Shown here in pieces: positions 5,943 through 10,154 of a stretch of DNA of 64,000 nt. Positions within the stretch are counted from its first letter, which is position 1. Each line of letters begins with the position of its first letter. The position numbers and the translations under genes are program-made. Source of the DNA: Laspinema sp. D2d (GTDB lineage Bacteria > Cyanobacteriota > Cyanobacteriia > Cyanobacteriales > Laspinemataceae); contig NZ_JAMXFC010000010.1 in assembly GCF_025370755.1 (NCBI RefSeq), positions 1 through 64,000 of the forward strand. Direction: 5' to 3'. The notes below the pieces were generated by a model, which saw only the letters and a list, made by a program, of their open reading frames with translations, ran no database searches and was not told the DNA's origin.

Positions 5943-8387
5943 TTAAATCATCTCCATCACCTCTGATAATTCCCCCTCTTCCTCCTCAACAATTTCCACT
6001 TCTGTCGCCTCTTGCAAATTAGCCAAGGGTAACTGATAGCGGTCTAAAAGCATTGCCTGTAAGCAGCTATTAATCCCAGAAACTACCTCGTTATAATCGG
6101 CAATTTTATCTTGAACTTCTTGCAAGTGGATTTGATTGCTTTCAAGTTGCTCCTGTGCTTCCCGTTCTAGGGTTTTTTCTAGGTGCGATCGCGCTCGGTT
6201 GTATTGTTGCAGAATCATCTCCTCTTGCTGCTTGACTAGCGGCAATAAATGAGTTTTCAAGGTTTGATTCACCGTTTGCCGGAAGGTGCTTTGAATCGTG
6301 TGTTTGACCTTCGGTTCAAAATCCAGTTTTAACAACTGACGAATAGCGGGTTCCGCATCTTTCATGCTGGCACAATCAAAACTTTGAGAAGTTTGTTGCA
6401 GCACTTTACGGAATTGGTAAATCGAAAACGTGCCTTCATCGTAAAAGCGAGGACTCTCCCGCACAAAGCGATCGCATTCTGTGCTTGCCGCCGCACGAAT
6501 TGCTTGCTGAACTTGCACTTGTAGATTTTTAATGGTCTGTTCTAGTCCAGCATCGCCCCCAACTAATCGGCATAATTCTCGATAATAGTCTTGACGGCGA
6601 ATTCGGTCGATTAAATAGGCAAAGTAGTTGGCAATAGTTCGTTCGGATTCTTCGGCCAAAACTGCCTCTAATTCATTGGACAAGTAATAGAAGGCCTCGA
6701 CTAAAATCGCCAGTAATGGTGCAGTCGAGTTACGAGGATGGGTGAGGGTTGCTTGCCGATATGCTTCTTCTACTGAAAAAGTATTCAACAGTTCATCCAT
6801 GCGGCAAACCATGCGGACTTTCAGTTTGCGGAAGTCTTCCTCAAAGGTGAGGCACTGATTGGTTACGACTTCATTCACTTCTTGGGTAATATGGTCATTT
6901 AAAGCCATTCCTAGGCGGCGTAAGTCATAGTTTAGTTGTTCCATTCGCCGCAATTTTAACCCTTCAATATTGACGGGTTGACTCTCTAGGTCCCGATAGT
7001 GTTGGACATAATGGCGACTTAATAGGAGGCAGATAGGCTGGAGGTCATTAGCGAGGGTTTTAAAGAGGAGGGGGCGTTTTTCCTGGGTTAGGTAGTTGGT
7101 AATGCTGGTGCGAAATTCTTCAATGCCGCTATCAGAAATAAGCTGATTCAGGAGGGATGTTCCGCATTCATTGAGAATACGGACGTAGTTTTGATTGGGG
7201 GTTTCGTAGCTGTAAACCGCTATTTTAAATTGACTGGGGGAGAGTTTCCCAGAGTTGGCGCAGTAGCGGTTAAATTCATTGACAAATTGCGGGGTGTCTT
7301 CCTGGATGCTGGTGTTTTTGACGCTTTCGGCAAAGAGGGTATCTAATCCATAGCGATCGCGTTCGCTGGTTTGTTTGATTTGACTTCCCCAAAATCCCAG
7401 CAATCCACTGGTTTTATAGAGGCGTTTGGTATCTCGGAATTGGGTGACAATTAGCTCATCCAAGCGTTGTCGAAGTTGGGTATTATACCAGGTTTCGTCA
7501 ATGCGATTGAAAACATAAAAGACGCGATCGCGAATTCCGGGATTAGACCGCATTTTTTCCAGTAACTCGGTCTCTTCCGTCGTCATATCCCCTTCAGAAG
7601 CGGGTTTGAGGACACATACCACCGCTGAGGTTTCTGGGTCTTCAATCTTGCGATAGGTGAGTTCCGCATCCCGTTTTACCGGCGCATCAATTCCCGGTAA
7701 ATCAATCAGCACATTGCCATCTTTGAGCAATGGATGATAGCAGTAATATTCAATCCGTTTCAACACTGAACTATTGCTACCCCGCCGCGCATAGCTGGCG
7801 GCTTCTTTGAGGTTAGAAAAGTTAAATTGTTCCATCGAAAATGTGTTATTATTCACCGGATGAATGCGGCTGCTATTTTCTGCAAATCCATCCAGCAATA
7901 ATATCAATGCCTTCGCTTGTTTGGCTAATTGGGATTTACTTTCACCCCCTTCTTTATTGAGAATAGTTTGAGCAATCTCCCGCAACAGTTTCAGGACTTC
8001 TGGTTCGTTAATATTCGTCGCTGCTTTGATGCCTAAACGCTCACATAAAGCGGTGATTTGGTCTTTAATCTCAATTCCACTCAAAAACGTGAGAACGACT
8101 CGCCCTTGGTCCGGTTCGGCATATTCAATATAGCACTCAGTTCCCGTGGCGTGACCTTCGGCACTGTAGAGCAATTCTCGTTCTAACAAGGCATTAATCA
8201 GCATGGATTTACCTGCACTAAAAGCCCCAGCAAAGACAATTTCAAACTTAGGGGCAATTGCCTTTTTCAACGAGGACTGGACAGCGGTGATATCTTGTTG
8301 TCGCAACGCGGGTTCTTGATGCAACAATTCGAGGATGCGATCGACCTGATTCTGTAGCTGTTGACACTGAGGCAGCAATTGAGTCAT
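5943..8387 (-). CDS. Bacterial dynamin-like GTPase
   Basis: A large GTPase (814 residues). G1 P-loop is GAFSAGKS at 54-61, G3 is DLPG at 229-232 and G4 is NRID at 294-297. The P-loop with GxxSxGKS(M/S)LINALL is typical of the dynamin superfamily. The rest is long helical sequence with a predicted coiled coil near 690-770 and an acidic C-terminal tail (EIVEEEEGE). Bacterial dynamin-like proteins bind or remodel membranes; some protect against membrane stress or phage. No second dynamin gene is adjacent, unlike the paired types. Specific role unknown. Confidence 0.85.
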   Translation of the reverse strand: MTQLLPQCQQLQNQVDRILELLHQEPALRQQDITAVQSSLKKAIAPKFEIVFAGAFSAGKSMLINALLERELLYSAEGHATGTECYIEYAEPDQGRVVLTFLSGIEIKDQITALCERLGIKAATNINEPEVLKLLREIAQTILNKEGGESKSQLAKQAKALILLLDGFAENSSRIHPVNNNTFSMEQFNFSNLKEAASYARRGSNSSVLKRIEYYCYHPLLKDGNVLIDLPGIDAPVKRDAELTYRKIEDPETSAVVCVLKPASEGDMTTEETELLEKMRSNPGIRDRVFYVFNRIDETWYNTQLRQRLDELIVTQFRDTKRLYKTSGLLGFWGSQIKQTSERDRYGLDTLFAESVKNTSIQEDTPQFVNEFNRYCANSGKLSPSQFKIAVYSYETPNQNYVRILNECGTSLLNQLISDSGIEEFRTSITNYLTQEKRPLLFKTLANDLQPICLLLSRHYVQHYRDLESQPVNIEGLKLRRMEQLNYDLRRLGMALNDHITQEVNEVVTNQCLTFEEDFRKLKVRMVCRMDELLNTFSVEEAYRQATLTHPRNSTAPLLAILVEAFYYLSNELEAVLAEESERTIANYFAYLIDRIRRQDYYRELCRLVGGDAGLEQTIKNLQVQVQQAIRAAASTECDRFVRESPRFYDEGTFSIYQFRKVLQQTSQSFDCASMKDAEPAIRQLLKLDFEPKVKHTIQSTFRQTVNQTLKTHLLPLVKQQEEMILQQYNRARSHLEKTLEREAQEQLESNQIHLQEVQDKIADYNEVVSGINSCLQAMLLDRYQLPLANLQEATEVEIVEEEEGELSEVMEMI

Positions 8388-8690: not shown

Positions 8691-10154
8691 TTAACTGCGC
8701 CACTTGCGGGTAAACTCATCCAACACCGAATTATGAATCTGGCGTTGCAACCAATTGATCGCCTGTTGTTGATGGTTTAATCCCTGATAATATTGGCAGA
8801 CATCTACCAAAGAAATATTCCCAGCAACCGCAACTGATGACCGATTGCGCCATTGACGAGAAAACTCAGATAAGGTACTGTTAGGAATCTGACTTTGCAA
8901 CCACTGAAGCGCTTGCTTTTGGTTACTCAAGCTTTGGTAATAATTACAAACATCGACTAAATCGATATTGGTAGATTGAGCGGCCATTTGCTGATTCCCC
9001 GATCGCCACCACCGAGCAAATTCGTTTAAAATCCCACTGGAAACCTGACCCTGCAACCAATAGATCGCCTGGTCTTGCATCGGCAATCCTTGATAAAATT
9101 TTGCCACATCCACAAAATTAATCGGGGAGGATGCGGAGGCATGACCCCGCCAGCGACGGGCAAATTCTAGTAAATTTGCCTGAGATAATTGACCCTGTAA
9201 CCAGTCTAATGCTTGATTTTGATGGGAAAATCCTTGATAAAATCGACAGACATCAATCAACCGAATTACAGGAGTTGGTCCCGACTGAATCGGCGTCGGG
9301 TTAGGTACAGGAGAGGGCGTTGGCGTCGGTGTTGGGGTGGGAATATAAACCGGGGGAGGCGTCGGTTGCACTTGGGTTGGGGGTTTAATTGCACTCACCA
9401 AGGCGGTCCAAGTTTGAACGCCCACAATGCCATCCACGGTAAGATTCATCGCCCGTTGAAATGCCATCACCGTTGAGTGCATTGTTGCCCCAAATACCCC
9501 ATCAGTAGACCCGGGATTAAATCCTTTATCCCGCAGACACATTTGGATATATTTAACATGAGAGCCTTTCCCGCCTTGGCGACAGACATTAAACCAGTTG
9601 ACATCAACACCGCCGTTAATTCCGCTGACTCTACCGCTTTCGGTGTATTGCCAAAACGTCCAACCATCCCACCCTCCAGGAACCCAGGGATTGTTGGTCT
9701 GATAGTGAGCAATCCATAGGGGATAATCGCTGAAAATTGTAGGATTACCAATCCGTTCCCAAAAACTGGGAAAAGTGTAAATAATGGGGCGACGCTTGGT
9801 TTCTTTCTCGACAATTTCGATCCAAGTCGTAATATCCCGAATAATCGAACTTGCGCCAACTCCATCCGTAGATTCAATATCCAGAACCGGCGGCAAATCA
9901 TTCGCTTCTAGTTGCACGGTTTTGAGGAAAATATCCGCTTGTGCTTTGGGGTCTTGTTTAGCCCGATAAAAGTGATAAGCACCCCGTGCCATTCCTACGG
10001 ATTTGATGGCCGCCCAATTACTGCGATAGGAATCGGCCACAAACGTAGCGCCTTCGGTTGCTTTGGTAAAGGCAAACCCCATGCCATCCCCAACCACGGA
10101 ATTCCAATTTACGGGGTGTTGCCAATCGGAAACATCGATACCTTTTGCACACAT
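8691..10154 (-). CDS. GH25 lysozyme with peptidoglycan-binding domain and four novel repeats
   Basis: A 487-residue muramidase predicted to cut the MurNAc-GlcNAc bond. Residues 1-195 are the GH25 barrel, with the conserved GIDVSDWQ start and the catalytic DxE at 92-94 (LDIES). Residues 198-256 form a peptidoglycan-binding type 1 domain (DGVFGATMHSTVMAFQ, DGIVGVQTW). A Pro/Thr-rich linker follows (258-293), then four 40-residue repeats at 297-336, 345-384, 397-436 and 447-486 with consensus DVCxxYQxLxxQxQAxxWLQ...L.EFxRxWR. I do not recognise this repeat. No signal peptide is seen, either from the chosen ATG (10154) or from the upstream start at 10241. Confidence 0.9.
   Translation of the reverse strand: MCAKGIDVSDWQHPVNWNSVVGDGMGFAFTKATEGATFVADSYRSNWAAIKSVGMARGAYHFYRAKQDPKAQADIFLKTVQLEANDLPPVLDIESTDGVGASSIIRDITTWIEIVEKETKRRPIIYTFPSFWERIGNPTIFSDYPLWIAHYQTNNPWVPGGWDGWTFWQYTESGRVSGINGGVDVNWFNVCRQGGKGSHVKYIQMCLRDKGFNPGSTDGVFGATMHSTVMAFQRAMNLTVDGIVGVQTWTALVSAIKPPTQVQPTPPPVYIPTPTPTPTPSPVPNPTPIQSGPTPVIRLIDVCRFYQGFSHQNQALDWLQGQLSQANLLEFARRWRGHASASSPINFVDVAKFYQGLPMQDQAIYWLQGQVSSGILNEFARWWRSGNQQMAAQSTNIDLVDVCNYYQSLSNQKQALQWLQSQIPNSTLSEFSRQWRNRSSVAVAGNISLVDVCQYYQGLNHQQQAINWLQRQIHNSVLDEFTRKWRS

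Follow-up and report, generated by a model that had tools for sequence, protein, structure and literature searches.

A candidate wall-binding domain shared by cyanobacterial wall enzymes and cyanophage lysins

A stretch of 64,000 nucleotides from Laspinema sp. D2d (contig NZ_JAMXFC010000010.1, positions 1 to 64,000; hereafter the window) encodes a GH25 lysozyme that ends in four tandem copies of a short repeat. A first-pass annotation of this DNA took the repeat for an unrecognised domain and suggested that it may bind the wall or the sheath. The locus thus raises the question of what the repeat is, and what it does for the enzyme that carries it. The features of the gene are listed below; the four-copy HMM behind the E-values of the units was built from these same four copies.

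8691..10154, minus strand: GH25 lysozyme with four C-terminal repeats, 487 aa (stop-free translation)
9618..10139, minus strand: GH25 catalytic domain, residues 6-179 (PF01183, E 1.4e-49)
9399..9566, minus strand: PG_binding_1 domain, residues 197-252 (PF01471, E 2e-15)
9273..9398, minus strand: Pro/Thr-rich linker, residues 253-294 (sequence)
9138..9272, minus strand: repeat unit 1 (four-copy HMM E 1.1e-27; copy-4 search E 5.7e-12)
8994..9128, minus strand: repeat unit 2 (four-copy HMM E 7.3e-28; copy-4 search E 1.8e-10)
8838..8972, minus strand: repeat unit 3 (four-copy HMM E 1.3e-27; copy-4 search E 1.1e-14)
8694..8822, minus strand: repeat unit 4, the C-terminal end of the protein (four-copy HMM E 8.4e-28; query of the copy-4 search)

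The frame runs uninterrupted from an ATG at 10154 to a stop at 8691, and the Pfam matches confirm that the repeats follow a GH25 lysozyme domain and a PG_binding_1 domain, as first described. The Glyco_hydro_25 score is 169.3 bits against a curated cut-off of 27. Among 16 aligned sequences D92, E94 and D184 are invariant and D7 nearly so; we take these residues (early Asp, DxE, late Asp) to be the GH25 catalytic acids. The window protein is a GH25 lysozyme, and muramidase activity is predicted from the domain and the retained acidic residues. Judged from its sequence, it has no evident signal peptide. A window-type gene adjoins hisA in 7 of the 35 loci from the strict-pattern genome scan described below, in several genera, which marks it as an apparently settled chromosomal gene and disfavours a prophage origin. 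A large ORF with a GxxxxGKS motif, presumably a dynamin-like GTPase, also adjoins the lysozyme gene (5943-8387, minus strand), and this neighbour recurs at loci L068-L070.

The four repeats, originally placed at residues 297-336, 345-384, 397-436 and 447-486, are recovered by the profile at 295-339, 343-387, 395-439 and 445-487 (converted from an ORF numbering that begins 29 residues earlier), with a unit length of about 43 residues. Copies 2-4 share 49-51% identity with copy 1, and 18 of 45 columns are invariant. Used as the sole query against the whole 6.6-Mb genome, copy 4 recovers its three sister copies at E 1.1e-14, 5.7e-12 and 1.8e-10, so their similarity is not a matter of chance; a fifth match, on another contig, has E 2.5e-4. 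The motif DVCxxYQxLxxQxQAxxWLQ, proposed as common to the copies, stands as a description of the repeat and fails as a strict signature: copy 2 has DVA, and across 75 diverse units Q18 and L25 alone are invariant, with Y12, A21, F37 and R42 nearly so. The duplication appears to be an old one, because no DNA direct repeat was found to span the copies at the window gene, and a recent DNA duplication was rejected on this ground. In seven four-copy proteins the mean identity is 56.9% between copies at the same position across species, 50.1% between copies at different positions and 52.2% among the copies of a single protein; the first two values suggest that the four-copy array predates the split of these lineages.

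The hydrophobic columns of the unit (5/8/9/12, 21/22/25/29 and 34/37/38/41, from column hydropathy) show helical spacing, and for this reason we propose that the unit is probably a three-helix mini-bundle with a PHQ turn. Aromatic residues occupy further columns (Y11, W22/W24, W/Y41), and those at 11, 22 and 24 could serve sugar binding. A longer variant of the unit, extended by about six residues ahead of helix 3, forms the N-terminus of C39 and C39+GH19 proteins, among them the products of two adjacent genes in the window's own genome. The latter pair (L036, contig C82, 60000-75000) comprises adjacent ORFs of 301 and 516 aa, each starting with the longer variant, with a C39-like part after the unit in both and an additional GH19-like part in the 516-aa ORF; a similar gene pair is present in L047-L052.

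A known domain was sought in Pfam, NCBIfam and the PDB with the 75 diverse units and no significant match emerged, in agreement with the initial view of the repeat as unrecognised. For the window protein itself, nothing in Pfam or NCBIfam rises above its curated cut-off across the repeats, and neither PHROGs nor the PDB gives a credible match to them; HolB_lid (E 0.0053) and RE_Eco47II (E 0.0095), which fall over the repeats, lie below the Pfam cut-off, are unrelated to one another and were rejected. For the 75 units Pfam returns scattered weak matches, the best, at E 0.0017 (8 of 75), being to an unrelated coiled coil; NCBIfam has none under 0.05, and the unit profile A5 finds no PDB chain below E 1 (best E 1.1). 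Searched singly against PHROGs, 74 of 75 have no match at E <= 0.01, and the remaining one matches phrog_1034, a family with no annotation, at E 7.9e-4. Other PHROG models overlie phage proteins discussed below: phrog_10051 aligns to residues 5-219 of the S-CBP2 protein, unit included, phrog_7 covers residues 1-382 of S-CBS2 and phrog_181 aligns to the WH11-B lysin from residue 32 onwards. These three are whole-endolysin models in which the unit is not set out as a separate domain. Our literature searches, including the portions consulted of PMC5017753, PMC4478636 and PMC8790148, yielded no recognisable description of this repeat domain.

The unit behaves as a mobile domain, present in one to five copies per protein at N-terminal, internal or C-terminal positions. 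In cyanobacteria it is carried by GH25, amidase, GH24, C39+GH19, M15/VanY and PG_binding_1 proteins. Among the 77 non-redundant unit ORFs of the fetched genome loci, 63 are joined to a partner that acts on or binds peptidoglycan, labelled with our own reference domains (most checked by Pfam): GH25 with PG_binding_1 (22), PG_binding_1 alone (14), amidase with or without PG_binding_1 (8; this label pools two families), C39+GH19 (6), C39 (6), C39+GH24 (3), and one each of GH24, M15, VanY with PG_binding_1 and an L,D-transpeptidase-like domain (L053, a weak label). Some carriers, such as L371, consist of PG_binding_1 and one unit in about 140 aa, so that wall-binding parts are all that was found there. 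By a crude hydropathy test, 63 of 73 genome unit ORFs lack an obvious signal peptide.

The other 14 ORFs have no peptidoglycan-related partner: four are trypsin-like, three have a part of about 170 aa outside Pfam, and seven are unlabelled, five of these being 153 aa or shorter. Trypsin-like proteases with two C-terminal units (L037, L041, L092-L100) form the main partner class outside the wall hydrolases; their middle part is Pilin_GH (by Pfam, run on L037), and those tested have signal-like N-termini. Proteins of about 250 aa with an N-terminal unit (L044, L045, L386) are alike in their remaining 170 or so residues, for which Pfam holds no family (L045 tested). Three Microcoleus loci (L075, L079, L081) have three units in ORFs of 206-265 aa, too short for the GH25 domain of their relatives, possibly through a frameshift or a broken gene.

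Phages carry the same unit. A tblastn search of 50,697 phage records with the unit only (E limit 1) retrieved 17 records from 12 phages, all of them Synechococcus phages; some matches, taken singly, are weak (E up to 0.9), and nine of the 12 phages were inspected. The P60 unit as query finds all 17 records and the S-EIVl unit 16, a subset of them. Under the match, 15 of the 17 records are annotated as endolysin, lysozyme or lytic transglycosylase, and the other two are of lysis type by Pfam (S-EIVl, Glucosaminidase and C39_2; B23, YkuD and GH19, the latter below cut-off). The inspected proteins are built as follows.

WH11-B, P60, S-CBP42: unit, GH19-like (PHROGs for WH11-B, below Pfam cut-off, and for P60, unreported by Pfam, where PDB endolysins add support; annotation and visible similarity for S-CBP42)
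S-EIVl: unit, GH73, C39 (above Pfam cut-off)
S-CRES2: GH73, unit, C39 (above Pfam cut-off)
S-CBS2: GH24, unit, C39 (above Pfam cut-off)
S-CBP2, S-CRES3: unit, C39-like (PHROG for S-CBP2; annotation and visible similarity for S-CRES3)
B23: YkuD, unit, GH19-like (YkuD above Pfam cut-off; GH19 by PHROGs)

The build of S-CBS2 is shared by proteins of small cyanobacterial genomes (L378, L379, L381 and L385, the last labelled GH24 only), which may be prophage or taken-over phage lysins.

IMG/VR viral contigs were scanned with a partner-blind DNA pattern for YYxxxPHQxxAW. Of 81 stretches, 78 lie in frame in ORFs of at least 40 aa; the remainder are out of frame (L303) or have the unit in frames of 30-31 aa at a contig end (L323, L329). 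A significant unit match (E <= 1.6e-4) was obtained for 75 of the 78 with profile A2, used for this count because pattern contigs supplied 17 of the 75 rows of A5, and the other three, terminase-like and devoid of such a match, were dropped. Every one of the 73 ORFs that reach 60 aa is joined to a wall-hydrolase domain, and the remaining two are truncated, at 40 and 51 aa. By the reference domains used above, these 73 ORFs and three further ones on the same contigs are labelled GH19 (26), C39+GH73 (19), GH73 (12), C39 (8), GH73+M15 (6), GH24 (3) and C39+GH24 (2). Extra unit-bearing ORFs stand beside the pattern match in L295, L329 and L341, and in L295 and L329 these are GH24 lysozymes with a diverged C-terminal unit.

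The viral unit is mostly N-terminal, that is, it begins no more than 60 residues into the stop-to-stop frame: this holds for 67 of the 75 partner-blind ORFs and for 98 of 104 ORFs in a second set, fetched by way of endolysins, in which 102 have one copy. Since the second set is biased to endolysins, what we say of phage partners rests on the unit-only tblastn and the partner-blind pattern. A strongly hydrophobic N-terminal stretch is missing from 81 of 82 viral unit ORFs by the crude test. Compared directly, the four-copy window profile can be aligned with a profile of nine phage units across 40 columns (hhalign probability 98.5%, E 2.9e-15), and by these independent profiles the window repeats and the phage units are homologous. 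Profiles A2 and A5 include phage units, which match them by construction; six phages outside A2 (L060-L065) match at E 5.7e-12 to 1.9e-7.

Within the cyanobacteria the four-repeat window profile matches 44 of 99 genomes, the window's own counted, and the broad profile A5 matches at least 39 of 386 genomes across the phylum, possibly an underestimate, as up to 18 first-look candidates per genome were scored. In the order of genome G436, which we infer, partly from its phage-like lysins, to comprise small unicellular cyanobacteria infected by such phages, 16 of 399 genomes match A5 and 383 do not. A strict pattern, the means by which genomes outside the cyanobacteria were covered, was run over 84,980 species genomes; 35 of 66 stretches were confirmed, and all 35 carry cyanobacterial titles. 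Plasmids contribute three records with the unit among 72,556, all three cyanobacterial. Beyond what was first noted for this gene, the unit is therefore widespread yet patchy in cyanobacteria and cyanophages.

We consider it likely that the repeat is an undescribed, mobile domain of about 43 residues, probably three-helical, that binds the cyanobacterial wall. Its ligand would be peptidoglycan or something fixed to peptidoglycan. Cyanobacteria would add one to five units to wall-cutting enzymes and so hold the enzyme on its substrate; in the window protein, four units would join PG_binding_1 behind a GH25 muramidase, presumably for higher avidity. For the same purpose cyanophages would add usually one unit, mostly N-terminal, to lysis enzymes of differing chemistry (GH19, GH73, GH24, C39 peptidase-like, L,D-transpeptidase-like with GH19). 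This reading is the best available because the unit is mostly terminal, repeatable, independent of the enzyme and common to host and phage lysis enzymes. It is recurrently fused to chemically different wall hydrolases in hosts (63/77) and phages (73/73), and absence from the domain libraries searched together with these partners indicates that it is probably an undescribed family within the known functional class of wall-binding domains. The early guess of wall binding is thus supported by the partners, and above all by the cyanophage endolysins, whose use of the unit is the strongest functional hint that the sequences provide. The sheath, named as the other candidate target, is less likely than the wall, because in phages of unicellular Synechococcus the unit sits on lysis enzymes, which act on peptidoglycan from inside. 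Several observations stand against wall binding: a minority of partners are not peptidoglycan-related (14/77), and the reading does not account for the trypsin-like and non-Pfam ones; most host unit proteins are leaderless (63/73, crude test), and it provides them with no route to the wall; the spread of the unit is patchy; and one cyanophage lysozyme, which may or may not carry the unit, did no better than T4 lysozyme on Synechocystis (PMC4478636).

An unlikely alternative is that the unit binds no ligand and acts as a protein-protein or oligomerisation module, clustering wall hydrolases with one another or on an envelope scaffold. Small tandem helical units with the aromatic columns described above could form such interfaces, and the occurrence of the unit on trypsin-like proteases would fit, but a single copy on phage endolysins of unrelated catalytic type does not. 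Moreover, as no match to the unit is seen in 383 of the 399 genomes from the order of G436, a host partner shared by the phages would have to be another, conserved protein. If the hosts of these phages belong to that order, retention of the unit by the phages argues for a wall ligand rather than a unit-encoding partner, and makes a second unit, or a protein encoded alongside it, an unlikely target.

We give still less credence to an export or injection tag, by which the unit would take leaderless wall enzymes across the cytoplasmic membrane instead of gripping the wall. The dearth of hydrophobic N-terminal stretches (63/73 genome and 81/82 viral ORFs, crude test) and the near-N-terminal unit of most viral ORFs speak for it; yet phage endolysins normally exit through holins, the trypsin-like proteins have signal-like N-termini that would make a tag needless, and both the position of the unit and its copy number vary. 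A general helical linker or spacer with no specific partner, the prospect raised when the repeat was first described, is highly improbable: the column pattern is helix-like, and in a few phage lysins, such as those of S-CBS2 and S-CRES2, the unit has a catalytic domain on either side, whereas it is mostly terminal (98/104 and 67/75 viral ORFs, and the very end of the window protein), strongly conserved at Q18, L25, F37, R42, Y12 and A21 over the 75 diverse units, and restricted in partners and hosts.

Returning to wall binding, a narrower form of it is possible, if doubtful: the unit may recognise a wall feature confined to cyanobacteria, such as a modified glycan or a polysaccharide fixed to peptidoglycan, and may have passed between these bacteria and their phages. 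The unit would then grip walls in a phylum-specific manner, and its ligand would be a hallmark of the cyanobacterial wall that phages exploit. Cyanobacterial peptidoglycan is described, in the part of PMC4478636 consulted, as exceeding that of other species in thickness and in degree of cross-linking. Pfam models were the tool of a 2016 survey of cyanophage endolysins (PMC5017753, in excerpt), and as the unit has none it would have gone uncounted there. No named wall-binding domain for cyanophage lysins was found in those portions of the literature that were searched. Should the unit bind walls, it would give many cyanophage lysins and dozens of host proteins an annotation for their non-catalytic part, provide a label for cyanobacterial sacculi, and make the anchoring of cyanophage lysins testable with a 43-residue protein.

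Known wall-binding domains offer points of comparison for the unit. PG_binding_1 (PF01471) is likewise a small non-catalytic domain on wall hydrolases, and both occur in the window protein, but its model has 57 positions and different conserved columns. A relationship of the unit to this neighbour was rejected: profile comparison (hhalign) gives a probability of 0.3% over one aligned column, and none of the 75 units matches PF01471 at E <= 0.1. CW_7, the wall-binding repeat of the Cpl-7 phage lysozyme, has three helices. Its 40-position Pfam model (PF08230), compared here at the sequence level, offers an analogy in how the unit may work; identity with CW_7 was rejected at that level, as 0 of 75 units match at E <= 0.1, and the CW_7 model has no match in the window's genome, while a control in Lactococcus lactis was positive. 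SLH domains, which match none of the 75 units (Pfam, E <= 0.1), resemble the unit as envelope-anchoring modules; they work in trimers and bind peptidoglycan-linked polymers, according to the consulted part of PMC6081394. The lysins of phages of Pseudomonas and Salmonella, as far as the excerpt of PMC3352856 extends, have an N-terminal wall-binding domain and a C-terminal catalytic domain; unit-bearing cyanophage lysins differ from them in their hosts and resemble them in layout, with the putative binding domain N-terminal.
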